11,237 nt of DNA from Acidaminobacter sp. (GTDB taxonomy: Bacteria; Bacillota_A; Clostridia; Peptostreptococcales; Acidaminobacteraceae): positions 1-11,237 of the forward strand of contig WXFH01000134.1 of NCBI GenBank assembly GCA_009881125.1, read 5' to 3'. This document shows, in pieces, positions 186 through 11,237 of the stretch (position 1 is the stretch's first letter; each line of letters opens with the position of its first letter). Both the position numbers and the translations under genes were made by a program. Below the pieces are notes generated by a model, which saw only the letters and a program-made list of their open reading frames with translations, was not told where the DNA came from and did no database searches.

Positions 186-743
186 TTAATGCTCTTCCTG
201 TACTTTGGTTACCTTTGATCCGCTTTTTTCAACAGCGATACGAATTGCTATGGTGAACCACCCGGCGGCAAATCCAATTGACGCATAGAGGAGCTCGCCA
301 ACAGCTACCATGAGATAACCTTCGGCTGCGACGGCAGGTATGCCCATCAGACCGAAAAACATACCCGTTCCAAGAAAGATAGCCGCTACATTGTTAAAAT
401 ACGGGACTTTCTCAAAAAGAAGCATAATAATGACCAATACAAACACGGCCAGCGGAATTGCAACTGTAGCGACATCCAAACCATTTGTCGCAAAGACACC
501 AACCAACAAAAACATAAGGATTGCTGCGGATATACCGACAATAATGCCTAAAATACCGCTAAAAGCGCCTTTTAGGTTAGCACCTAAAAGAAAATAGGCT
601 GCCCAACTGATGAATGTAATAAAAGTTAAACTTGCTTCTGTGGTAATAATCCCAAATCCTTGCAGTAGGTTGGTGGACAAGTCGACAAATCCGGCAAGTG
701 CAGCAATACAGATGGCGTAAATAAATAATTTTTCAGTTTTCAT
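186..743 (-). CDS. Small integral membrane protein, DUF1097-like
   Basis: The 185-residue product is very hydrophobic, with five or six likely membrane segments (roughly residues 7-27, 36-57, 60-85, 90-110, 116-136 and 143-168) and a short charged C-terminus. The segment with WAAYFLLGANLKG (about residues 47-59) followed by a Gly-rich helix, and a later LGTGMFFG stretch, resemble the uncharacterised DUF1097 family (YcdZ type). That call is from memory of the family pattern, not from a search. The start is supported by GAGGAGG (plus coordinates 750-756 on the complement) with 6-nt spacing. It is transcribed divergently from the molybdenum hydroxylase genes and ends before a strong terminator, so it is probably monocistronic. 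Its function is unknown; a transport or membrane role linked to the neighbouring catabolic genes is possible but unproven. Confidence 0.75.
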   Translation of the reverse strand: MKTEKLFIYAICIAALAGFVDLSTNLLQGFGIITTEASLTFITFISWAAYFLLGANLKGAFSGILGIIVGISAAILMFLLVGVFATNGLDVATVAIPLAVFVLVIIMLLFEKVPYFNNVAAIFLGTGMFFGLMGIPAVAAEGYLMVAVGELLYASIGFAAGWFTIAIRIAVEKSGSKVTKVQEEH

Positions 744-957: not shown

Positions 958-969
958 ATGATCGATTAT
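958..969. promoter_or_regulatory. Upstream copy of the ATAATCGATTAT operator motif
   Basis: The sequence ATGATCGATTAT matches the self-complementary motif at 11 of 12 positions. It lies about 190 bp upstream of the block 1 promoter. It could be an auxiliary site for looping or could serve the divergent gene. It is less certain than the sites at 1150 and 1192 because of its distance. Confidence 0.4.
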
Positions 970-1146
970 GTATTGTTTTTCTAGACATTACTACAGTGAT
1001 GCAAGGATGTCAAGATTGCCTTGCAAAAAATGATTCAGTGCGATTGTTTTTCTTATTCATTGCATTGAAATAGGCATTAGTAAGTTGTAATTCGAATACA
1101 CCTCATCAGAATATTATCTATTATCAGAAAAATCTATAAGAGATTA

Positions 1147-1176
1147 TTGACAATCGATTATAGATGATGATACAAT
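1147..1176 (+). promoter_or_regulatory. Sigma-A-type promoter of the molybdenum hydroxylase operon
   Basis: A consensus -35 box TTGACA (1147-1152) and a -10 box TACAAT (1171-1176) are separated by 18 bp. Transcription would start near 1183, giving an untranslated leader of about 115 nt before the ATG at 1299. An operator-like palindrome sits within the spacer, touching the -35 box, and a second lies just downstream of the expected start site. This arrangement is typical of a repressed promoter. Confidence 0.7.
1150..1161. promoter_or_regulatory. Operator-like site inside the block 1 promoter
   Basis: ACAATCGATTAT matches the palindrome ATAATCGATTAT at 11 of 12 positions and overlaps the end of the -35 box and the first half of the spacer. 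A protein bound here would block RNA polymerase. Its centre is 42 bp, about four helical turns, from the centre of the perfect copy at 1192-1203, so bound proteins would face the same side of the DNA. Confidence 0.6.
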
Positions 1177-1191
1177 CTCGACATAATAAAG

Positions 1192-1203
1192 ATAATCGAT
1201 TAT
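1192..1203. promoter_or_regulatory. Perfect ATAATCGATTAT operator-like site downstream of the transcription start
   Basis: This is a perfect 12-bp self-complementary sequence placed roughly +10 to +20 relative to the predicted start of block 1 transcription. The same motif recurs before block 2 (6086-6110). Position and phasing with the 1150-1161 site favour a repressor that acts by looping or road-block. Confidence 0.6.
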
Positions 1204-1298
1204 ATGTAATAAGCAGACTGTTAATTTTCTTATATTCGAGGAGGGACAGTAAAGGATTTCAGCAAAACGGTTAAAACATATAATAAGGAGGATTCAAC

Positions 1299-3671
1299 AT
1301 GACTGATGTTCAAGAGAACGGTTACATTGGCAAAAGCGTGCAGAGAGTCGATGCTTATGACAAAGCAACGGGTAAGGCAAGATTTATTGAAGACTACCAG
1401 AGTCAATTTAAAGATCTTCTTCATGTAAAAATTTTACGCAGTCCTCATCCTCACGCAAAAATCGTCAATATTGATTCCAGCATTGCTGAAAAATTACCCG
1501 GCGTCGCTACTGTTGTAAAAGGGACAGATCCGGATCTTCCTTGGGAGTATATACCATATGCCAACAATTATTACGGTAATCCAGCTAAGGATGAAGTCAT
1601 TTGGGCTGGCCAAGCAGTTGTCGCCGTTGCGGCTTCAAGCATTGAGATTGCAGAACAAGCGCTGGAGTTAATAAAAGTCGAATACGAAGTTTTACCTTAT
1701 GTCATTGACCAAGAAGCAGCCGTTGGTCCTGACGCGATTCCGGTTGTGGATCCAAAACTTGGATTATCTGCAGGCTACCAGGGTCCCCATCCTGATGGTC
1801 CCAATGTCCTTGGCAGCTATAAACTGAAAAAGGGCGACTTGGATGCTGCATTCGCAGAAGCAGACGTCATCGTTGAACAGAAGTATTCAAATGACAAAAA
1901 ATCTACTGCTGCAGTCGAGTGCAATGGTGTCATAGTAGAATACAAGAGCGATGGTATTACCGTTTACACGAACTGCTGTGGTATTCACGGTGTTGTTAAA
2001 GAGAAACTTGTTAACATGTTTCCAAATTTATCAGGATCGCAGCTTCGAGTCGTTCAGCCATTCCAGGGCGGAAGCTTTGGAAATCGCTTATTTCCATTGA
2101 TTGAGCCTCTTGCTGTTGTGATTGCCCTCAGAACAAAACGGAATGTTTCTCACATATTGACCCGTAAGGAAATGTTCACATCTTCTCCTTCAAACTGGCC
2201 ATGCGTGACCACCCTAAAGCTGGGCGCGAAGAAGGATGGCACAATCATAGCTGAAGAGTTCAAGATCACTGAAAACACGGGTGCATCCATCAACAACTAT
2301 TATGATGGGAGACTGTCTGGTTCTGGTCTGGTTTGTGTTTATGATGTCCCTAATGTCTTTGGTGATGGGTATGCTGTCAGTACGAATACCGTTCCTTGCG
2401 CACCTTATCGCGGACTGGGATGTCCAGAATCTGAATGGGCTATGGAGAACCTGTTGGATGTTCTTGCGGAAAAGCTGGGCATGAGCCCTGTGGAACTGCG
2501 CTTGAAGAACTTCATCAAGCGAGGCCATGAAAACGCTTATGGCGAAAAATTAACGAGCACAAGCGTTGCAGCATGCTTAACAGCGGTTGCAGATGCGATT
2601 AAACTTGACGAGCCATGTGAGCAAGAGCCTGGACCTTGGCGGAAAGGCAAAGGAATCGCGGTTGGTGGAAAGCAAAATACACCACTCGGTCGTGCTGAAG
2701 CGGATGTACTGGTTCATAGCGACGGCAGTATTGAGCTCCTGGTGAGTGTCGACGAGCAGGGGATGGGTGCTCAGACTACGTTGATGCAGATGGTTGCAAC
2801 CGAATTTGAGATCCCTTATGAGAGTGTCAAGGTGACTAGAGCTGATACTGCCGTTACACCTTTTGACAACTTTGCTGCCTCCAGTCGTACAACATACACA
2901 ACAGGTAATGCTGTTCGTATTGCCTGTCAGGATGCGATTCGCCAATTAAAAGAAGCCGCTGGCCGCAAATTGGGCGTGGCAGCTATGCAAGTGACGATCA
3001 AACAAGGTAAAGCCTTCATCTTGGGATCTAATGTTGAAGAAATTGCAGTGGCAGATCTATTCGAGCCTTTCTCCTTCTTTACAGATCAAAACTGGGGATT
3101 ACAAAAAGGAACACCTGTCAGAGGCAGGGGTGTTTTCTGCCCGGCACCGGCTGTGCCTTGGTTTGGACCTGGCCATGAGGATGGCCGTACGCCGCGGATG
3201 TGGAACTGGTATCAATTCAGTGCCTGTGCGGTTGAAATCGCTGTCAACGTTGAGACTGGACAAATCAAACTGCTTAAGATCGCAAGTGCTGCTGACACCG
3301 GCAATCCTATCAATCCTAAATTAGTTGAAGGGCAAATCGAAGGCGGCGTTATCATGGCACTGGGCTTCTCGGTCATGGATGGTCACGTTTATCAAGATGG
3401 CGTTATGGCGAATCCTGGATACAATGATTATCGAGTTCCGACCGTGTTGGAAACGCCACTCCAAAGCAACATTATTCCTATCATCTCACCTGATGCACTT
3501 CCGGATGGTCCTTACGGTGCAAAGGGCATGGCCGAGTCCATTACAATACCAGTTGGTCCTGCCATCGCATCAGCCGTTTATCAGGCTGCTGGCGTAAGGC
3601 CAACTGTCATGCCAATGACCGCTGAAAGGATTCTCGAGTTGATCAATGCAAAGGAGGCAAAAAATGATTAA
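1299..3671 (+). CDS. Molybdenum hydroxylase (xanthine dehydrogenase family), Mo-cofactor catalytic subunit
   Basis: The 790-residue protein is the large subunit of a three-subunit molybdenum hydroxylase, which would hydroxylate an N-heterocycle or oxidise an aldehyde using water as oxygen donor. The N-terminal hammerhead domain spans about residues 15-130 and the two cofactor-binding domains about 160-400 and 450-770. Visible motifs are GGSFGN (257-262, cofactor contact), PYRGLG (369-374), and GAKGMAESITIP with E746 at the position of the catalytic base Glu. E207 aligns with the second active-site Glu of xanthine oxidase. The CO dehydrogenase signature AYRCSFR is absent, so it is not a CoxL. 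The residue matching xanthine oxidase Phe914 is Leu373, so xanthine is not an assured substrate. The length is normal for the family. AAGGAGG at 1285-1291 with 7-nt spacing supports the start. The gene overlaps the FeS subunit gene by 8 nt. The exact substrate is unknown. Confidence 0.93.
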   Translation: MTDVQENGYIGKSVQRVDAYDKATGKARFIEDYQSQFKDLLHVKILRSPHPHAKIVNIDSSIAEKLPGVATVVKGTDPDLPWEYIPYANNYYGNPAKDEVIWAGQAVVAVAASSIEIAEQALELIKVEYEVLPYVIDQEAAVGPDAIPVVDPKLGLSAGYQGPHPDGPNVLGSYKLKKGDLDAAFAEADVIVEQKYSNDKKSTAAVECNGVIVEYKSDGITVYTNCCGIHGVVKEKLVNMFPNLSGSQLRVVQPFQGGSFGNRLFPLIEPLAVVIALRTKRNVSHILTRKEMFTSSPSNWPCVTTLKLGAKKDGTIIAEEFKITENTGASINNYYDGRLSGSGLVCVYDVPNVFGDGYAVSTNTVPCAPYRGLGCPESEWAMENLLDVLAEKLGMSPVELRLKNFIKRGHENAYGEKLTSTSVAACLTAVADAIKLDEPCEQEPGPWRKGKGIAVGGKQNTPLGRAEADVLVHSDGSIELLVSVDEQGMGAQTTLMQMVATEFEIPYESVKVTRADTAVTPFDNFAASSRTTYTTGNAVRIACQDAIRQLKEAAGRKLGVAAMQVTIKQGKAFILGSNVEEIAVADLFEPFSFFTDQNWGLQKGTPVRGRGVFCPAPAVPWFGPGHEDGRTPRMWNWYQFSACAVEIAVNVETGQIKLLKIASAADTGNPINPKLVEGQIEGGVIMALGFSVMDGHVYQDGVMANPGYNDYRVPTVLETPLQSNIIPIISPDALPDGPYGAKGMAESITIPVGPAIASAVYQAAGVRPTVMPMTAERILELINAKEAKND
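3651..3657 (+). promoter_or_regulatory. Ribosome binding site deciding the FeS subunit start
   Basis: AAGGAGG lies 6 nt before the ATG at 3664. An in-frame ATG at 3646 precedes this site and has no ribosome binding site of its own, so 3664 is preferred. The site lies inside the end of the upstream gene, indicating translational coupling. Confidence 0.8.
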
Positions 3672-4152
3672 TCCATCTGCTGGAGCAATAAATATCGATT
3701 TTCATGTCAATGGAAAGTCTTACTCAATGCAAGTTGAACCTTTTAAAACTATATTGGAAGTTCTGAGAGATGATCTTGGTTTAACTGGTGCTAAAAAAGG
3801 TTGTGATGATGGCAACTGTGGCGCCTGCACTGTAATTATGGATGGAAAAGCAGTTAAAGCCTGTTCCCTTCTTATTGGTCAGGCACGCGGCAAAAAAATC
3901 ACTACCATTGAAGGCTTAGAAGATGAAAATGGATTGCATCCATTGCAAAAAGCATTTATCGATCGATTTGCCATTCAATGCGGGTTCTGTACTCCTGGGA
4001 TGATCATGACGGCAAAAGCCATTTTGGACGCAAATCCCAATGCCACAGAAGAAGACATTCGAGAAGGGATGCACGGTAATATCTGCCGATGCACAGGTTA
4101 TGTAAAGATTGTCGAAGCTGTGGAAGCAGCAAGGGATCAAATGAACCGATAA
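3664..4152 (+). CDS. Molybdenum hydroxylase [2Fe-2S] subunit
   Basis: The 162-residue small subunit would carry electrons from the molybdenum centre to FAD. The N-terminal plant-ferredoxin-like domain has the first cluster ligands C47, C52, C55 and C67 (GCDDGNCGAC, then a Cys 12 residues further on). The helical C-terminal domain has the second cluster ligands C106 and C109 (QCGFCTPG) and C141 and C143 (NICRCTGY). All eight cysteines of the family are present and the length is typical. The start at 3664 is chosen over an in-frame ATG at 3646 because of the AAGGAGG at 3651-3657. The start overlaps the stop of the Mo-subunit gene by 8 nt, so the two are co-transcribed and probably translationally coupled. 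The FAD subunit gene follows after 35 nt. Confidence 0.95.
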   Translation: MINPSAGAINIDFHVNGKSYSMQVEPFKTILEVLRDDLGLTGAKKGCDDGNCGACTVIMDGKAVKACSLLIGQARGKKITTIEGLEDENGLHPLQKAFIDRFAIQCGFCTPGMIMTAKAILDANPNATEEDIREGMHGNICRCTGYVKIVEAVEAARDQMNR

Positions 4153-4187
4153 GATGGTCCACTATTTGAGCCAAGGAGGTATGCAGA

Positions 4188-5051
4188 ATGAAATTTGATT
4201 GGTATTATGAACCGACTTCCGTGAATGAATGTGTCGAAATTTTGAAAGAATATGGTTCAGAGGCAAAATTATTGGCAGGCGGTACAGATCTTGTAGTTAG
4301 ATTGAGAAGTCGGGCGCAGAAAGTTAAAGCATTGGTGAGTTTAAATGCAATGCCTGAGTTGTCACGGATCCAAAAAACAGAAGACGGCCTTCATATTGGT
4401 GCCATGACGAAGCTTATGGACATCACAAAATCAGAAATGTTCACTGGTTCATGGATGGTTGTCAAGAAAAGTGCTGGCAATGTATCCAGTATGCAAGTAA
4501 GAAATGTCGCGACCATCGGCGGAAATACCTGCAATGCTTCTCCAAGTGCTGATACAGTGCCGGGGATGATCGCTTCTGACGCTATAGTAAGGATAGCGGG
4601 AACTGAAGGTGAAAGAGCTTTGCCGCTGGAACAATTTTTTACTGGGCCAGGGAAAACGGCTCTTAAGAAGGATGAGATGGTGGTTGGATTTAAACTGCCG
4701 GATCTTGGACCTGGTAATGGGGCCGCTTATAAAAAATACGCCATTCGTGGAGACTCAGATATTGCCATTGTTGGCGTAGCGGCGCGTCTCAAATTGAGCC
4801 AGGATGGCATTATTGAGGATGCCAGAGTGGTACTTGGCGCAGTGGCTCCGACACCAATCAGGGTGCCATCTGCTGAGCAAATGCTCATTGGTCAAGTATT
4901 GACAGACGAATTGGCGGCTAAAGCGGCACAAGCTGCTTCCGATTTCTGCACACCAATTACGGATGCAAGAGCGACTAAGGAATACCGAAAAGAAATGGTC
5001 AGAGTTTGGACACAATACGTTCTTAAAGAGGCTCATAGTAACGCTCAATAA
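4188..5051 (+). CDS. Molybdenum hydroxylase FAD-binding subunit
   Basis: The 287-residue medium subunit would bind FAD and pass electrons to NAD or another acceptor. Two FAD-binding motifs of the vanillyl-alcohol-oxidase-type fold are visible: AGGTDL at residues 30-35 and ATIGGNTCNASPSADTVP at 108-125. The C-terminal part (about 180-285) fits the CO-dehydrogenase flavoprotein C-terminal domain, including a GAVAPTPIR segment. Length is normal. AAGGAGG at 4173-4179 with 8-nt spacing supports the start; an ATG at 4181 is out of frame and too close to the ribosome binding site. The Mo - FeS - FAD gene order differs from the E. coli xdhABC order (Mo, FAD, FeS). No iron-sulfur motif is present, so this is a separate flavoprotein rather than a fusion. 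Confidence 0.94.
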   Translation: MKFDWYYEPTSVNECVEILKEYGSEAKLLAGGTDLVVRLRSRAQKVKALVSLNAMPELSRIQKTEDGLHIGAMTKLMDITKSEMFTGSWMVVKKSAGNVSSMQVRNVATIGGNTCNASPSADTVPGMIASDAIVRIAGTEGERALPLEQFFTGPGKTALKKDEMVVGFKLPDLGPGNGAAYKKYAIRGDSDIAIVGVAARLKLSQDGIIEDARVVLGAVAPTPIRVPSAEQMLIGQVLTDELAAKAAQAASDFCTPITDARATKEYRKEMVRVWTQYVLKEAHSNAQ

Positions 5052-5064
5052 TTTTCAAAAACCA

Positions 5065-5106
5065 ATTCGTAACCGGCGAAATCCAATGTGATCGTCGGTT
5101 ACGAAT
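5065..5106 (+). repeat. Long intercistronic hairpin between the hydroxylase operon and the hydrolase gene
   Basis: Arms 5065-5079 and 5092-5106 pair over 15 bp with one G-U wobble and a 12-nt loop. No T-tract follows on the plus strand, so this is not a standard intrinsic terminator for the upstream genes. It starts 13 nt after the FAD subunit stop and ends about 40 nt before the hydrolase start. It could protect the upstream mRNA, be a processing site, lower downstream expression, or be an operator. Confidence 0.65.
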
Positions 5107-5145
5107 ATATTCAAACAGAAACCATAAAGAAATGAGGAATAGATC

Positions 5146-6006
5146 ATGGAACGGATAACGCCCAACGTCTTTACAGAAACCAAAATCCGGGGGTGCAATC
5201 CTGGTATTGTGTTTACCAGTGAGGGCGCTGTTTTTATCGATTCAGCGCAAATTCTCACCTATCTTTTGGATACCATTGAGTTTGCTCGAAGCAGGGGAGA
5301 TATTAAATACTTGATTAACACAGAACCACATATTGATCATATCTTTGGAAATCACTGGTTCGCAGGTGTATGTCCTGTCATAGCTCATGAGAAAATAAAT
5401 AAAGATTTTTTCCTGGTCCCTGGCACTATGGATGGCTATGATTACAGCGTTGATGTGCTGACGCGCCAAGATCCAAAGGGATTGGAGCATATGCCATCCC
5501 GCGAAAAATATATTGTGAATAGACCACAGATTACATTCAGTGAGAATATGACCTTAAAAGTGGGCGAACATACTTTCATGCTATACCATACGCCAGGGCA
5601 TTCGGATTCTCAAATTGCGGTTTATGTTCCAGAAGAGCGTGTTGTGTTTGTAGGGGATACTGTTTTTTCCGACTGTCAGCTTTGGCTGCATAGCGCCAAT
5701 ATTGAGGAACTTCTGAAGTCTCTTGAATTCATTCATACTTTAGATGTAGATTATGTCATACCAGGACACGGGCCTGTCGTAACCAAATCCTATTTAGAAG
5801 AACAGATTGCTTTTATTCAAGAATGGATCAAAGCAGTGGATCAAGGGATAAAAAAAGGCTGGTCAAAAGAAGAATGTATAAAAGAAATTAGCTTTGCAGA
5901 CCGTTTTCCAGTAGATATTGGCCAGGACGAGATGATGGATTATATTCAGCGCACCAATGTTGTGAAATGCTTCGATTATCTCGAGGCGCAACGTATTCAC
6001 CCTTAG
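5146..6006 (+). CDS. Metallo-beta-lactamase-fold hydrolase with a variant metal motif
   Basis: The 286-residue protein has the MBL fold pattern: strand ending in FIDS (30-33), metal motif ExHxDH at E60, H62, D64 and H65 (NTEPHIDHIFGN), a third-position His in TPGHS (H152), the bridging Asp in GDT (D171), and the final His in IPGHGP (H208). The first His of the usual HxHxDH is Glu here. The family includes thioesterases, lactonases and other hydrolases, so the substrate cannot be named. There is no signal peptide, so it is cytoplasmic. The start is supported by GAGGA at 5134-5138 with 7-nt spacing. It lies between the molybdenum hydroxylase genes and the dehydrogenase block, suggesting that it hydrolyses an intermediate of the same pathway. 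It may be read through from the upstream operon past a hairpin; no clear promoter of its own was found. Confidence 0.85.
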   Translation: MERITPNVFTETKIRGCNPGIVFTSEGAVFIDSAQILTYLLDTIEFARSRGDIKYLINTEPHIDHIFGNHWFAGVCPVIAHEKINKDFFLVPGTMDGYDYSVDVLTRQDPKGLEHMPSREKYIVNRPQITFSENMTLKVGEHTFMLYHTPGHSDSQIAVYVPEERVVFVGDTVFSDCQLWLHSANIEELLKSLEFIHTLDVDYVIPGHGPVVTKSYLEEQIAFIQEWIKAVDQGIKKGWSKEECIKEISFADRFPVDIGQDEMMDYIQRTNVVKCFDYLEAQRIHP

Positions 6007-6049
6007 TGTCGGGAACTGTTTATCAAGAGTGATTAACGATCCAAATTTA

Positions 6050-6078
6050 TTGATATATTAAAAGTGAAGGCATATTTT
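6050..6078 (+). promoter_or_regulatory. Probable promoter of the dehydrogenase / TPP-complex operon
   Basis: TTGATA (6050-6055) and TATTTT (6073-6078) are separated by 17 bp, a fair sigma-A-type match. Transcription would start near 6085, at the left edge of the large palindrome, which would therefore act as an operator over the start site. The -10 box is weak, so the assignment is tentative. Confidence 0.5.
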
Positions 6079-6085
6079 GGCTTTT

Positions 6086-6110
6086 AAAATAATCGATTAT
6101 CGATTATTTT
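6086..6110. promoter_or_regulatory. 25-bp perfect palindrome: double operator of block 2
   Basis: Two 12-nt arms (6086-6097 and 6099-6110) are exact reverse complements around a central T. It contains one perfect ATAATCGATTAT (6089-6100) and an overlapping 11/12 copy (6096-6107), with centres 7 bp apart. It lies immediately after the predicted block 2 promoter and ends 6 nt before the ribosome binding site, so a bound protein would repress. The same motif occurs at the block 1 promoter. Confidence 0.65.
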
Positions 6111-6116
6111 CAGAAA

Positions 6117-6121
6117 AGGAG
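6117..6121 (+). promoter_or_regulatory. Ribosome binding site deciding the dehydrogenase start
   Basis: AGGAG at 6117-6121 (within AAAAGGAG) is 8 nt from the ATG at 6130 but only 2 nt from an in-frame GTG at 6124. The ATG is therefore the better start. Confidence 0.75.
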
Positions 6122-6129
6122 AAGTGTAT

Positions 6130-7074
6130 ATGAAATTTAAACCAACCGAGCATATCACCATCATAGGTACGGGCATGATAGGGGCTAGTCTGGCTGCACT
6201 TTTCACCGGGAATGGATTTCAAACGACCATGCTCGCAATTGATGAGAAAACAGCATCTGATGGCAAGGCAAGGTATGACGACAGCTTTCGTGATCTCATC
6301 AATAAAAAACTCGTGACGGAAAAGCAATATGAAGCAAGTTCAAAACTGCTCAATTTTTCGCTGGATTATGCAGATGTTGCTGAAACTGATTTTATTTTTG
6401 AATGTGTTGTTGAGCGTATTGAAATTAAACATGAAGTCTATAAGAAGATCGAACAGCACTGCAAACGATTTAAAGCCATTGCTTCTTCAACCTCCGCCAT
6501 CTCTGCAGACGACTTGGCTGCAGGACTGCAGGACAAAGAGAAACTGTTGGTGGCTCATCCCTGGAATCCACCACATCTTGTCCCGTGCGTTGAACTAGTA
6601 AAAAGTCAGTATACCAGTGATGAAGCAGCATCTTATCTCTATGAGATTCTTGAATCTGTTGGACGGAAAGTGGTCATGATGAAAAAAGGGGCACCGGGAT
6701 TCATTGGGAATCGACTTCAACACGCACTTTACCGAGAAGCGGTGCATATGGTGGAACAAGGAATCGCGACACCTGAGGATATTGATAAAACTTTAAAATA
6801 CAGTTTTGTTCCGAGATATACTTCAATCGGCATCTTTGAGCATTTTGACTATGCCGGATTGGATATGATCGTCAGTATCGATGACTACCTGTTCCCGGAT
6901 CTAAGCAACGCTGACCGGACTCAGGATTATATCCGGTCACGTTATGAAGCGGGAAATCTTGGTCAGAAAACAGGACTAGGTGTCTATGACTGGTCAAATG
7001 TTGATATGGAAGATTTTCGTGAGCGAGCAGCGAAACCTTATTATAGTTTTTTTAATTGGAATTTACCTGAATAG
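6130..7074 (+). CDS. NAD-dependent dehydrogenase of the 3-hydroxyacyl-CoA dehydrogenase superfamily
   Basis: The 314-residue protein has a Rossmann domain beginning IIGTGMIG (G13, G15, G18), which suggests NAD binding, and a C-terminal helical dimerisation domain containing GFIGNRLQHALYREA. The catalytic pair appears as H143 and E155 in AHPWNPPHLVPCVELV, with the 12-residue spacing seen in human HADH. The HPxNPP form and the single-domain length resemble the lambda-crystallin / L-gulonate 3-dehydrogenase and L-carnitine dehydrogenase branch more than classic fatty-acid HADH, so a non-CoA hydroxy acid is a plausible substrate; this is inference from motif memory. The ATG at 6130 is chosen over GTG 6124 on ribosome-binding-site spacing. 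It is the first gene of block 2, follows a large palindromic operator, and is 32 nt from E1 alpha, implying that its product feeds the TPP complex. Confidence 0.85.
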   Translation: MKFKPTEHITIIGTGMIGASLAALFTGNGFQTTMLAIDEKTASDGKARYDDSFRDLINKKLVTEKQYEASSKLLNFSLDYADVAETDFIFECVVERIEIKHEVYKKIEQHCKRFKAIASSTSAISADDLAAGLQDKEKLLVAHPWNPPHLVPCVELVKSQYTSDEAASYLYEILESVGRKVVMMKKGAPGFIGNRLQHALYREAVHMVEQGIATPEDIDKTLKYSFVPRYTSIGIFEHFDYAGLDMIVSIDDYLFPDLSNADRTQDYIRSRYEAGNLGQKTGLGVYDWSNVDMEDFRERAAKPYYSFFNWNLPE

Positions 7075-7106
7075 TCATGAAGTGAAGTAAAAAGGAGTGA
7101 GGGTCA

Positions 7107-8087
7107 GTGATTTCTAAAGAAAAAAAACGCTGGATTTATCAAACGATGAATCAGATTAGATGGTTTGAACTCAAGGCGCAGAGCTTGTTTGAGCAAAACA
7201 AACTGCGTGGCTCTGTACATCTGTATGCAGGTGAGGAAGCAGTTGCAGCAGGGGTTTGTGCGCTGCTTCGAGATGAAGATTATATTACGAGTACTCATCG
7301 AGGACATGGTCATTGCATTGCGAAGGGCGCCAGACTTGATTTCGCAATGGCGGAGTTGATGGGGAAGGCAACAGGTTATTGTAAAGGCAGAAGCGGATCC
7401 ATGCATATCGCTGATTTTACTAAAGGAAACCTGGGAGCAAACGCGATTGTCGGTGGTGGAATTCCAATTGCGACGGGCGCTGCTTTGGCAGCAAAGCTTA
7501 AAGGCACTGACCAGGTTGCAGTGTCGTTTTTCGGCGACGGCGCATCCAATGAAGGGACTTTCCATGAAAGTTTAAATATGGCGGCCGTTTGGAAGCTTCC
7601 GATTGTTTTTGTCTGTGAGAACAATGGATTTGGAATCTCAGTCCCAGTGTCTCAATCAACCTCAGTTGAGAATATCAGTGTGCGCAGTGTTGGATACAAT
7701 ATGCCTGGTATTACTGTTGATGGCAATGACGTCTATGCGGTTTATGAAGCCGCTGAGGCTGCGATTTCACGTGCAAAAGCCGGAGATGGACCAACCCTTA
7801 TTGAGTGTAAAACCTATCGTCATTTGGGTCATTGGACTGGAGATCCACAAGTTTACCGTTCGAAGAGTGAAGTGGATGATTGGAAAGAAAACAAAGATCC
7901 CATTAAAAAATTCCGTGAGAAATTGATTGAAGAAGGTACATTCACCGCTGACGAGCTGGATGCCATTGAACATGCGGCCATTAAAGAAGCAGATGAGGCA
8001 GCGGAGTTTGCCATCCAGAGTCCTGAGCCAGATCCGGCGCATGTCATGGACGACGTATTTTATGTGGACAAGGAGGTTGTTCAATGA
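7107..8087 (+). CDS. acoA: TPP-dependent dehydrogenase E1 alpha subunit, acetoin dehydrogenase type
   Basis: The 326-residue protein is the alpha subunit of a heterotetrameric E1 that uses thiamine diphosphate to cleave a 2-oxo acid or acetoin-like ketone. The TPP/Mg motif runs from GDGASNEG (143-150) to ENN (171-173). STHRGHGH (62-69) matches the conserved active-site loop. The loop YRHLGHWTGDPQVYR has the GHxxGDxxxYR form that I associate with AcoA and lacks the SxSDP phosphorylation loop of pyruvate dehydrogenases. The GTG start at 7107 has a GGAG ribosome binding site about 9 nt upstream and gives the normal family length and N-terminus. It overlaps E1 beta by 4 nt (ATGA). Acetoin dehydrogenase is the best family label, but the true substrate could differ given the neighbours. 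Confidence 0.9.
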   Translation: MISKEKKRWIYQTMNQIRWFELKAQSLFEQNKLRGSVHLYAGEEAVAAGVCALLRDEDYITSTHRGHGHCIAKGARLDFAMAELMGKATGYCKGRSGSMHIADFTKGNLGANAIVGGGIPIATGAALAAKLKGTDQVAVSFFGDGASNEGTFHESLNMAAVWKLPIVFVCENNGFGISVPVSQSTSVENISVRSVGYNMPGITVDGNDVYAVYEAAEAAISRAKAGDGPTLIECKTYRHLGHWTGDPQVYRSKSEVDDWKENKDPIKKFREKLIEEGTFTADELDAIEHAAIKEADEAAEFAIQSPEPDPAHVMDDVFYVDKEVVQ

Positions 8088-9067
8088 GTATGAAGACGTA
8101 TTCAATGGCGATTCGCGACGTCATTGCTGAAGAAATGCGCCGCGATGAGCGCGTGTTTATCATGGGAGAGGACATCGAAATCCTGGGCGGTGTTTTTGGC
8201 TGTACCAAAGATTTATATAAAGAGTTTGGCGTTGACCGCGTTCGAAATACCCCTATTTCGGAGGCCGGAATGATTGGAGCCGGCGTTGGCGCGGCTTCAG
8301 CAGGAATGCGGCCGATCGTGGAACTCATGTATATGGATTTTACGCTCGTAGCAGCAGACCAAATTATTAATCAGGCTGCCAAAACGCGGTATGTCTTTGG
8401 CGGAAAAGCTGAAATACCTCTGGTCATCCGAGGTCAACAGGGCATTGGGCGCGGCAATGCGGCGACACACAGCCAAAGCCTGGAGACACTTTTTATGCAC
8501 ATTCCCGGATTGAAAATAGCATGCCCGTCAACTGGCGCAGACGCGGCCGGGCTGCTCAGAACGGCAATACGAGACAACAATCCAGTATTGTTTTTTGAAC
8601 ATAAAGCCCTCTATCCTGTGAAGTTCGAAGTACCAGATGATCCAGATTTCATGATTCCATTCGGTAAAGCAGATATAAAGCGCCAAGGAAAAGATGTCAC
8701 TATTGTGGCTTCATTGCTTTATGTGAGTCGTGCCCTGGAAGCGGCAGAAGAGCTGAAGAAAATGAACATAGACGCTGAGGTAATTGATCCGAGAACTTTG
8801 GTGCCGCTGGATATGGAAACGATTATAGAATCCGTGAAGAAAACAGGCCGGCTTGTGGTCGCTCATGAAGCCCATAAAACTGCTGGATGGGGCGCTGAAG
8901 TGGCATCACAGGTTACAGAGAACGCGTTTAAATATCTGGATGCACCACCCTTTAGACTAGGCGCGAAAGCCTGCCCGCTGCCTTTTAACTTAGAACTGGA
9001 AAGTGCTGTCGTACCAAGTGTGAATGATATAGTCAACGCAGCGAAAGCTGTTTGCTACCAAAGATAA
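8084..9067 (+). CDS. acoB: TPP-dependent dehydrogenase E1 beta subunit, acetoin dehydrogenase type
   Basis: The 327-residue beta subunit pairs with E1 alpha to form the active site. Visible features are GED (28-30), PISEAG with the TPP-activating E60, DFTLVAADQIINQAAK (85-100), and THSQS with the catalytic-loop H129. The C-terminal transketolase domain begins about residue 200 and contains VIDPRTLVPLD. Full length for the family, with no missing motif. The start ATG at 8084 is set by AAGGAGG at 8070-8076 with 7-nt spacing; a second in-frame ATG two codons later is less well spaced. The ATGA overlap with E1 alpha suggests coupled synthesis of the two subunits in equal amounts. E2 follows after 12 nt. 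Confidence 0.93.
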   Translation: MSMKTYSMAIRDVIAEEMRRDERVFIMGEDIEILGGVFGCTKDLYKEFGVDRVRNTPISEAGMIGAGVGAASAGMRPIVELMYMDFTLVAADQIINQAAKTRYVFGGKAEIPLVIRGQQGIGRGNAATHSQSLETLFMHIPGLKIACPSTGADAAGLLRTAIRDNNPVLFFEHKALYPVKFEVPDDPDFMIPFGKADIKRQGKDVTIVASLLYVSRALEAAEELKKMNIDAEVIDPRTLVPLDMETIIESVKKTGRLVVAHEAHKTAGWGAEVASQVTENAFKYLDAPPFRLGAKACPLPFNLELESAVVPSVNDIVNAAKAVCYQR

Positions 9068-9079
9068 GGAAGGTAAATT

Positions 9080-10414
9080 ATGGCTCAAGTAATTATTATG
9101 CCAAAACAAGGTCTGCAAATGACAGAGGGTACAATCACAGAATGGTTGTTCAATGAAGGGGATCTGGTTCAAGAGGGAGAGTCTCTCTTTGAGATGGAAA
9201 CCGACAAGCTGTCAATTACAATAGACGCCACGACCAGCGGTACTTTGCTCAAAATCATTCATGACAAAGGTGAGGTCGTTCCAATTACTCAACCGATTGC
9301 GGTAATTGGCGAACCGGGTGAGGATATTTCAGAAATCCTACAAACACTGAACGTGATAATAAGCCCAACAGCATCCGGTGCAGAACCTTCAGCTGCTGTG
9401 ATTCAAAAGCCGCTCGAAAGCCTTGAAAAAAATGACGTAGTTTCACCATCTCATGGGCAGTATGCTTCACCTCGAGCAAAAATGACTGCTGAAAACATGC
9501 AAATCGATTATCACACTATCTCAGGTTCGGGTCCTGAAGGGATGGTTATTGAACGGGATGTATTGGCTTATTCGCAGATAGACTTACCTAAAGCTTCACC
9601 ACTGGCGCAAAAGGTTGCTGCTTTAAATAATATGGATCTGAATCAAATAACAGGTACCGGACTTCGCGACAAAATCATGTCTCAGGATGTGTTGGCCGCG
9701 ATTGCCGCTAAAGTCGAAGCTCGAAATTCGAAGACCTCAAGAGGAGAAAAACTGATAGCCCTGACCGGTATGCGCAAGGTTGTCGCTTCACGTATGAAAG
9801 AAAGCCTTCAGGAAATGGCGCAAGCCAATCATCGCATAACGGTGGATATGACTGAGGCGGTTAAATTGCATGAACAACTTAAAAAAGCGGATGTAAAAGT
9901 CAGCTATAACGATATTGTCCTCAGATGCGCCGCAAAGGCTTTGACAGAATTTCCAATGATGAATACGTCATGGTCAGATGACGGTATTTTAATAAAAGAG
10001 TATGTGAATTTGGGTGTGGCTGTATCCGTTGGAGATGGATTGATCGTTCCTGTCATTCGAGACGCGGATCTCATGTCGTTGCCAGAACTCGCATCCTGTT
10101 CAGTGGAATTGGCAAAGAAAGCAAAAGATAATACGCTGCAACTGGATGAATACACGGGTGGAACCTTCACGGTTTCAAATTTGGGAATGTTTGACATTGA
10201 TGGTTTCACCGCAGTCATCAATCCTCCTGAAGCAGGTATTCTGGCAGTAGGTAAATTGGCTAAACAGCCAGTGGTGATTGGTGATGAGATTGTTATACGC
10301 AGCATGATGCAGCTCAGCTTGACTTATGACCATAGGATCATCGATGGCGCGCCAGCCGCAGAGTTTCTAAGAAGGATCAAGACACTTCTTGAAAATCCTG
10401 GACTTTTGATTTAA
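9080..10414 (+). CDS. acoC: Dihydrolipoamide acyltransferase (E2) with two tandem subunit-binding domains
   Basis: The 444-residue E2 core carries the acyl group from E1 to CoA on a lipoyl arm. An N-terminal lipoyl domain (about 1-78) has K43 in ETDKLSI as the lipoylation site. Two peripheral subunit-binding-like domains follow: about 129-164 (ASPRAKMTAEN ... ISGSGPEGMVIERDVL) and 172-208 (ASPLAQKVAAL ... ITGTGLRDKIMSQDVL). The catalytic domain covers about 225-444 with HRIIDGA near the end (H418, D422), the CoA-acyltransferase active site. The start is supported by AGGAAGG at 9067-9073, 6 nt upstream. It is 12 nt from E1 beta and 13 nt from the E3 gene. The motifs indicate an active acyltransferase; the acyl specificity (acetyl or larger) is not readable. 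Confidence 0.93.
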   Translation: MAQVIIMPKQGLQMTEGTITEWLFNEGDLVQEGESLFEMETDKLSITIDATTSGTLLKIIHDKGEVVPITQPIAVIGEPGEDISEILQTLNVIISPTASGAEPSAAVIQKPLESLEKNDVVSPSHGQYASPRAKMTAENMQIDYHTISGSGPEGMVIERDVLAYSQIDLPKASPLAQKVAALNNMDLNQITGTGLRDKIMSQDVLAAIAAKVEARNSKTSRGEKLIALTGMRKVVASRMKESLQEMAQANHRITVDMTEAVKLHEQLKKADVKVSYNDIVLRCAAKALTEFPMMNTSWSDDGILIKEYVNLGVAVSVGDGLIVPVIRDADLMSLPELASCSVELAKKAKDNTLQLDEYTGGTFTVSNLGMFDIDGFTAVINPPEAGILAVGKLAKQPVVIGDEIVIRSMMQLSLTYDHRIIDGAPAAEFLRRIKTLLENPGLLI

Positions 10415-10427
10415 TGGGAGGAAAACC

Positions 10428-11237
10428 ATGAAGTATGATGTTGCAATACTTGGGGGCGGTCCTGGAGGGTATGAATCCGCAATTAGATGTGCTCAATTAG
10501 GACTAAAAACTGCATTAATTGAAGCCCGGGATCTTGGAGGAACCTGTTTAAATCGCGGGTGCATTCCTACAAAAGCTTTGCTTCACAGCGCAGAAATTTA
10601 TGAAAATGCCAAAGAGGCTGAAAACTTTGGTGTTTCTACAGGTACAGTGACCTACGACTATGGCGTGATGGCAGCACGAAAAGACACAATCGTAACGAGT
10701 ATACGCAAGAGCATTGGGATCATGCAAAAAAAACACGGTGTAGAAGTCATTAATGGGTTTGGAAGACTCAAGGATTCCCAAACCATTGAGGTAGGCGAAC
10801 AGCTTGTCAAAGCAGACAAAATTATTCTTGCGATGGGTTCTGTTCCCTCTCGGCCGCCTATTCCCGGTTTGGATGGGGAAAATATTTTGACCAGTGATGA
10901 GGTTCTCGCCTTGAAAGATTGCCCGGAAAGCATGATCATCATTGGCGGCGGTGTGATCGGAATCGAATTTGCGACCCTTTATGCGACACTAGGCAAAAAA
11001 GTAACCGTGTTGGAAATGATGCCATCCATTCTTCCCGGTGTAGACCGTGATATGGTCGAGTTGATTTCAATGGTTTTGGAGACCAAAGGTGTTGAGGTCA
11101 TCACCGGTGCTAAAGTCCTCTCCATTGAGGGCGGCAAAAACGCGAAGGTGAACTACAGCTTAAATGAAATTGAACAATCCGTCGTTGGGGGATGCTGTTT
11201 GGTCAGTGTTGGAAGAAGTCCAATGACGAGTCAAATT
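10428..11237 (+). CDS. lpdA: Dihydrolipoamide dehydrogenase (E3), partial, runs off the right edge
   Basis: The first 270 codons are open to the end of the window; full-length E3 is about 450-470 residues. Visible are the FAD motif ILGGGPGG (7-14), the redox-active disulfide GGTCLNRGCIPTK (C40, C45), and the NAD motif IIGGGVIGIE (171-180), then an LEMMPSILPGVD segment. The flavoprotein would reoxidise dihydrolipoyl-E2 with NAD. There is no lipoyl domain fused to its N-terminus. The start ATG at 10428 follows GGGAGG (10416-10421) by 6 nt and lies 13 nt after E2, so it is the fifth gene of block 2. The C-terminal interface domain with the active-site His-Glu pair is outside the window. Either acoL or lpd would be a fair name. 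Confidence 0.93.
   Translation, partial: MKYDVAILGGGPGGYESAIRCAQLGLKTALIEARDLGGTCLNRGCIPTKALLHSAEIYENAKEAENFGVSTGTVTYDYGVMAARKDTIVTSIRKSIGIMQKKHGVEVINGFGRLKDSQTIEVGEQLVKADKIILAMGSVPSRPPIPGLDGENILTSDEVLALKDCPESMIIIGGGVIGIEFATLYATLGKKVTVLEMMPSILPGVDRDMVELISMVLETKGVEVITGAKVLSIEGGKNAKVNYSLNEIEQSVVGGCCLVSVGRSPMTSQI

Follow-up and report, generated by a model that had tools for sequence, protein, structure and literature searches.

The palindrome ATAATCGATTAT, a 12-mer recurring at the promoters of a catabolic gene cluster, is very probably, on sequence grounds, the docking site of a GntR-type repressor. We hold with good confidence that its copies are operators of one local FadR/FCD-type GntR repressor, which would act at three promoters and be released by a ligand. 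The gntR gene sits beside the same genes in relatives, suggesting that the catabolic enzymes form one jointly switched regulon. By computation we located the sites and placed them relative to promoters; in relatives we found them retained ahead of orthologous genes and ahead of gntR itself, which adjoins the cluster there.

Palindrome copies and target units in the window

The window (the whole 11,237-nt stretch of DNA analysed) had previously been read from its sequence alone, and the five copies of the palindrome reported in that sequence-only reading were all recovered at the same positions. The stretch at 6086-6110 is indeed a 25-base inverted repeat, with two 12-base arms flanking one centre base, and it holds two overlapping 12-mers offset by 7 bp. 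The shorter 10-position sequence TAATCGATTA was used in some of the comparisons. The genes and sites are listed below in order of position, with scores from a weight matrix trained outside the window.

186..743, minus strand: target 1, DUF1097 family protein (Pfam PF06496)
958..969, minus strand: putative operator copy before the divergent DUF1097 gene, 11/12 (1 mismatch; 22.2 bits)
1113..1124, plus strand: possible weak operator copy, 2 mismatches (8.8 bits)
1136..1147, plus strand: possible weak operator copy, 2 mismatches (12.4 bits)
1150..1161, plus strand: putative operator copy over the -35 hexamer and spacer of the hydroxylase promoter, 11/12 (1 mismatch; 23.9 bits)
1192..1203, plus strand: putative operator copy near the expected transcription start of the hydroxylase operon, 12/12 (33.0 bits, the best in the window)
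1299..3671, plus strand: target 2, molybdenum-hydroxylase large subunit (Pfam PF01315, PF02738, PF20256)
3664..4152, plus strand: target 2, [2Fe-2S] subunit (Pfam PF00111, PF01799)
4188..5051, plus strand: target 2, FAD subunit (Pfam PF00941, PF03450)
5146..6006, plus strand: target 2, metallo-beta-lactamase-fold (MBL) hydrolase (Pfam PF00753)
6086..6110, plus strand: putative double operator, 6089-6100 (0 mismatches) and 6096-6107 (1 mismatch) (25.1 and 17.4 bits)
6130..7074, plus strand: target 3, 3-hydroxyacyl-CoA dehydrogenase (HCDH) family protein (Pfam PF02737, PF00725)
7107..8087, plus strand: target 3, E1 alpha of the TPP complex (Pfam PF00676)
8084..9067, plus strand: target 3, E1 beta (Pfam PF02779, PF02780)
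9080..10414, plus strand: target 3, E2 acyltransferase (Pfam PF00364, PF02817, PF00198)
10428..11237, plus strand: target 3, dihydrolipoamide-dehydrogenase-like protein (E3), truncated where the window ends (Pfam PF07992)

The recurrence far exceeded that of shuffled sequence. Against five copies with at most one mismatch to ATAATCGATTAT, 500 dinucleotide shuffles of the window averaged 0.042 and never exceeded 2; at up to two mismatches the nine copies compared with a mean of 0.74 and a maximum of 4. When the two intergenic regions alone (678 bp) were shuffled 2000 times, the mean was 0.0145 and the maximum 1, against the same five copies. Allowing any 12-base palindrome with at most one mismatch, more than three copies were never found in 200 shuffles. 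The matrix, symmetrised and 26 bases long, was trained on 17 of 23 outside sites from other genomes and on none from the window; four of the 17 have one or two mismatches, several are mutually orthologous, and all had been collected by motif likeness. It ranked the five window sites first, at 33.0, 25.1, 23.9, 22.2 and 17.4 bits. Next came four intergenic registers that were weaker or overlapped, and the top score within a gene was 0.6 bits. The shuffles and this matrix bear out the view of the sequence-only reading that the repeated palindrome is unlikely to be due to chance. Its statement that the motif occurs only between genes holds at up to one mismatch and fails at two, where four more copies appear, two of them close to the hydroxylase promoter (1113 and 1136) and two within genes (5932 and 9500).

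The two functional blocks described in that reading were retained with a refinement: the first gene of the second unit encodes the 3-hydroxyacyl-CoA dehydrogenase, and the TPP-complex genes follow it. From this gene through E3 it spans 6130-11237, and by Pfam its E1-E2-E3 genes encode a 2-oxoacid-dehydrogenase-like complex. Among the window proteins, E1 beta alone reaches an NCBIfam curated cut-off, that of a subfamily model; the best NCBIfam match of E3, TIGR01350, is below cut-off, as expected of a cut protein. The divergent DUF1097 gene is probably a third unit of the regulon. A tblastn search with its window protein gave no match at E 1e-5 in the Acetobacterium loci.

Conservation of the sites and the candidate regulator in relatives

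A hydroxylase scan of genome contigs yielded seven loci (L001-L007), namely A. bakii (L002), A. wieringae (L003), a Firmicutes MAG (L004), an A. woodii MAG (L005) and three Planctomycetota MAGs (L001, L006 and L007), L001 and L006 belonging to the Planctomycetaceae. Family and order searches added two genomes, G015 and G440. L007 (genome G007) starts inside the hydroxylase gene and carries no upstream sequence, and was left out of the count. The upstream region is readable in the remaining eight relatives, which comprise five Acetobacterium-group genomes, two MAGs of the Planctomycetaceae and the distant G440. The presence of the site before orthologous genes in relatives was the test proposed in the sequence-only reading, and a perfect (12/12) palindrome was found before the hydroxylase gene in all eight. 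The hydroxylase large subunit is 70-77% identical to that of the window in the related loci and 50% identical in G440. Wider searches for the hydroxylase gave hits in 1 of 391 sampled genomes of the class and 3 of 392 sampled from the phylum of the Planctomycetaceae MAGs, with no genome beyond those known.

Gene order differs among these loci. Loci L002-L005 of the Acetobacterium group carry their hydroxylase, MBL, dehydrogenase and E1-E2-E3 genes in one run, so that the two blocks of the window are joined there. The three Planctomycetota loci contain the hydroxylase, MBL and dehydrogenase genes, and no E1-E3 match was found in the stretches examined. L001 and L006 carry the cluster at 56-58% G+C with a hydroxylase about 72% identical to that of the window, making these clusters, from sequence comparison, candidates for transfer between phyla.

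G440 provides the strongest test of the shared regulon, having another gene order and sites before all four units. On its contig C195 the order is dehydrogenase, gntR, E1 alpha and E1 beta, and on C247 E1 beta, E2, E3, hydroxylase, [2Fe-2S], FAD and MBL; the complementary E1 beta fragments suggest that the two contigs meet within this gene. The site precedes the dehydrogenase gene with one mismatch, gntR with two, E1 alpha with none, and the hydroxylase gene as three copies (0, 0 and 1 mismatch) 28 and 29 bp apart. Exact copies of TAATCGATTA number 14 in G440 versus 8 of the reversed control; four of the 14 precede E1 alpha and the hydroxylase gene, and nine of the other ten lie in ORFs. A search for paired operators, defined as TAATCGATTA twice 12-42 bp apart, picked out a single genome of the 391 sampled, G440, and there only the hydroxylase promoter. 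The sites at 1150 and 1192 of the window are 42 bp apart, as the sequence-only reading had it, and the helical phasing it drew from this spacing is not conserved. The spacing of the G440 triple site gives no support to phasing, as a conserved trait, being a sign of cooperativity.

The same reading had one unseen regulator controlling both blocks. This claim is supported, the candidate being a GntR/FCD protein of 218-252 aa encoded beside the operon in relatives. Its gene adjoins the site or the cluster in seven of the eight readable relatives, and in G440 it lies on the contig that seems to join the cluster. No gntR was found within the 11.2 kb window, and we infer that the regulator gene lies in the window's own genome, outside the window. 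In the Acetobacterium group the gene stands upstream in the same orientation, whereas in the Planctomycetaceae it is divergent. In G440 the dehydrogenase and E1 alpha genes flank it, and the protein there is 51-54% identical to that of A. wieringae. Three of the eight regulators were scanned, and all three scored above cut-off for an N-terminal GntR winged helix (PF00392) and a C-terminal FCD domain (PF07729); the others were aligned. The recognition-helix stretch LGVSQSPVREAIR is common to 15 aligned homologues, save for one Ala in place of Ser, and three FCD-domain histidines, His141, His184 and His206, which we take to be candidate metal-site residues, are invariant in all 15.

Sites also occur before gntR itself. 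The operator there is exact in both Planctomycetaceae MAGs and has two mismatches in G440. The matrix places a weak site (10.9-18.2 bits, scored without a control) 86-88 bp before gntR in all five Acetobacterium-group loci, which fits the expectation for autoregulation.

Five of 40 family genomes have the hydroxylase (E ≤1e-100), and these same five have close gntR orthologues (82% identity or more); of the other 35, 23 hold only paralogues of at most 34% identity and 12 gave no match at E ≤1e-20. This co-occurrence is supportive and not independent proof because the genes are linked, and descent as a single cluster could account for part of both the adjacency and the co-occurrence. A search for gntR at E ≤1e-35 gave 1 of 391 sampled class genomes, none beyond those known, and a protein-database search with the A. 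wieringae GntR returned 99 proteins at E ≤1e-40. In the family of the Planctomycetaceae MAGs, gntR is present in 2 of 16 genomes. G007, a Planctomycetota MAG with the hydroxylase, gave no gntR at E ≤1e-40 and no exact 12-mer; as the contig breaks off within the hydroxylase gene, the rest of the locus may simply not have been assembled.

Whether the motif is scattered through genomes, a further test proposed in the sequence-only reading, was examined in relatives. Exact 12-mers are few and locus-bound; one-mismatch copies are more numerous elsewhere. The exact 12-mer occurs 2-5 times in six of seven genomes searched (3.7-4.3 Mb), at least once at the locus in each, G007 being the seventh. The counts in the five regulator-bearing family genomes are 2, 3, 5, 3 and 3, with 10 of these 16 copies at the locus, and the 35 family genomes lacking the regulator contain nine in total. 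Both Planctomycetaceae MAGs with gntR have two exact copies each, all at the locus, whereas about 0.06-0.08 per 4.2 Mb is predicted from the composition of these loci. At one mismatch or fewer, four Acetobacterium-group genomes contain at least 39, 19, 31 and 37 copies (reversed control at least 10, 7, 4 and 9), and the two Planctomycetaceae MAGs at least 6 and 8 (reversed control at least 1, and 0). Given this excess over the reversed control, further sites may lie elsewhere and the regulon may be wider. Among the six exact copies outside the locus in the five regulator-bearing genomes, four fall within ORFs of 80 codons or more (one of them measured from stop to stop), and two (L009 and L078) fall outside; for the nine copies in regulator-less genomes, the numbers are three and six. 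As copies away from the locus are often outside ORFs too, intergenic placement alone is weak evidence, and location at the locus is the strong part.

Several features near the cluster were recorded in passing. An operator precedes a chemoreceptor-like gene by the cluster in three Acetobacterium-group genomes, at L004:3868 (1 mismatch), L005:5459 (0) and L061:9193 (1), with Pfam MCPsignal confirmed for the L004 protein; this suggests that taxis belongs to the regulon. At L003:20373-22370 the gene run extends to a glyceraldehyde-3-phosphate-dehydrogenase-like gene (by Pfam) and then a phosphoglycerate kinase-like ORF (by eye). A second molybdenum-hydroxylase-like set (by eye) lies between DUF1097 and gntR at L002:5110-8675 and L003:5138-8754.

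Operator placement, proposed mechanism and alternatives

Promoter-like sequences were found by each of the three putative target units in the window.

985..1013, minus strand: promoter-like TTGACA-17-TAATGT towards DUF1097 (score reached by 1.1% of shuffles)
1147..1176, plus strand: promoter-like TTGACA-18-TACAAT with a TG before the -10, hydroxylase operon (11/12 matches)
6050..6078, plus strand: promoter-like TTGATA-17-TATTTT before the 3-hydroxyacyl-CoA dehydrogenase gene (score reached by 3.7% of shuffles)

An operator starts 15 bp after the -10 hexamer at the DUF1097 and hydroxylase promoters and 10 bp after it at the dehydrogenase promoter. From the -10 positions, transcription is predicted to start near 978 (minus strand), 1183 and 6085, respectively. 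The sequence-only reading had placed the 958 site correctly and missed its weak promoter-like sequence, which reads the opposite way, to the DUF1097 gene; the -10 of this sequence is weak, and a stricter promoter scan does not include it. That scan found three promoter-like sites in 700-1310, fewer than the shuffle mean of 4.3, and two in 5980-6150 versus a shuffle mean of 0.6. A hairpin at 819-845 (-9.8 kcal/mol, z -3.2), with a 3' arm ending in a T run on the minus strand, sits between the 958 operator and the DUF1097 gene; it is a possible attenuator or terminator, and was not among the results of a terminator scan.

Fourteen sites were considered, chosen from 28 so as to limit near-duplicates. 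A sigma-70-like promoter lies directly upstream of the operator in 12 of them, each matched by 0-3.7% of shuffles, and the mean best promoter score over the 14 sites was 6.71 versus 5.37 in shuffles (sd 0.14, maximum 5.82). The two exceptions, with no promoter directly upstream, are the G440 gntR and G440 HCDH sites, the latter overlapping the -35 as does the window site at 1150. In 23 of the 28 sites tabulated, a promoter match ranking first or, in two of the 23, only second ends 4-22 bp upstream. Most sites overlap or follow promoter-like sequences, which is the placement expected of a repressor.

We propose that a ligand-free GntR dimer would bind those copies of ATAATCGATTAT that coincide with the start site or lie slightly beyond it, and those that cover the -35 and spacer. 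Once bound, it would block RNA polymerase at the DUF1097, molybdenum-hydroxylase/MBL and hydroxyacyl-CoA dehydrogenase/E1-E2-E3 promoters, until a small organic acid, probably a pathway intermediate, occupied the FCD domain and released it. Binding itself, repression rather than activation, and the inducer are what we infer from the observed arrangement, and the regulator may, as the sequence-only reading also supposed, respond to the common substrate of both blocks. Weighing against the model are the findings in G007, the one-mismatch copies elsewhere, the two G440 sites that no promoter directly precedes, the counts from the stricter promoter scan, the departure from the GT...AC core, the missing DUF1097 match in the Acetobacterium loci and the hairpin by the 958 site.

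GntR-family proteins can be dual regulators, and the same protein might activate transcription from the same palindromes, with or without repressing as well. The window site at 1150 and the G440 HCDH site, which overlap the -35 region and not the start, would suit such a role. We nevertheless consider it unlikely, since the -35 hexamers of the hydroxylase promoters read TTGACA or TTGACT, so that an activator should not be needed, and since the 4-22 bp between promoter match and site in 23 of 28 cases is a repressor position. The palindromes might instead bind another, possibly global, regulator, with the neighbouring gntR as a bystander. The departure of the operator from the common FadR-type consensus and the many one-mismatch copies elsewhere are in line with this. 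It is made very unlikely by the locus-bound distribution of the exact 12-mer (10 of 16 in regulator-bearing family genomes against nine in all 35 others, and both exact copies at the locus in each Planctomycetaceae MAG with gntR), and by the way in which gntR accompanies the palindromes in three different gene arrangements and is itself preceded by sites.

A role of the repeats in RNA, as a leader hairpin or attenuator, is extremely improbable, and so is their being AT-rich palindromes that arose by chance. As RNA, the repeat at 6086-6110 can fold (-9.2 kcal/mol, z -3.8), but no Rfam match was found in the window at gathering thresholds, and one site, lying over a -35 hexamer, is upstream of the expected transcript, which argues against a role in RNA. 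Chance is made unlikely by the shuffles, the outside-trained matrix and conservation in two phyla.

Comparison with known regulators

The analysis provides a concrete candidate regulator-operator pair and a target list for an uncharacterised catabolic cluster of acetogens. As the releasing ligand should be a pathway intermediate, the substrate becomes testable. The regulator, the operators and the core enzymes (hydroxylase, MBL and HCDH) co-occur in acetogenic Clostridia and in G+C-rich Planctomycetaceae, where the A/T-rich operator is intact. More tentatively, and rather less likely than not, a distinct FCD-type GntR branch with the ATAATCGATTAT operator may travel with the catabolic module across phyla, a sugar-acid-like intermediate being the inducer of an undescribed oxidative route.

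The closest solved sequence relatives of the regulator are 7xp0, McbR (PDB 4p9f) and the GntR-family structures 3sxy and 3fms, all only distantly similar (best profile score 88.5 bits); 3sxy is TM0439 (PMC4494728). According to a survey of GntR regulators, which includes one FadR-type clostridial regulator, the usual operator core of FadR-type members is NyGTNxACNy, with BioR (TTATMKATAA) and NanR as exceptions, and weaker half-boxes occur 7-12 nt from the main site (PMC4494728). Our candidate resembles the FadR/FCD repressors described there in its GntR HTH and FCD domains above curated cut-offs, its short A/T-rich palindromic operator, a gene adjoining the target operon, sites at its own gene, and extra boxes near the main site, the copy at 6096 with its 7-bp offset being similar to the weaker half-boxes (PMC4494728). 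Unlike theirs, ATAATCGATTAT lacks the NyGTNxACNy core (PMC4494728): the GT...AC core is absent, and ATCGAT stands at the centre in all 28 tabulated sites.

The operator is closest in look to that of BioR, also a FadR-subfamily protein with a short palindrome without a GT...AC core, although by inspection TAATCGATTA differs from TTATMKATAA at 2 of 10 positions (PMC4494728), and it is another exception to the common consensus. The targets also differ, being catabolic genes here and not biotin genes; a scan of 10 window proteins turned up no biotin-synthesis or transport family, and we take the PF00364 match (Biotin_lipoyl) of E2 to be its lipoyl domain. NanR is likewise a GntR-type repressor of a catabolic locus with an operator off the common consensus, but it binds GGTATA direct repeats, whereas the repeats here are inverted and sometimes several in a row (PMC8012715). 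Literature searches for ATAATCGATTAT gave matches only in papers unrelated by title, and those for TAATCGATTA with GntR gave no paper; nothing on the operator was found in the papers searched, and searches on the pathway mostly came back empty. A putative operator outside the common consensus is added to a very large family, which is useful for regulon annotation in the thinly covered Clostridia. Set beside these known systems, the conserved operators proposed for a local GntR/FCD regulator, very probably a repressor, are of a familiar sort, and what is new about them lies in the details.
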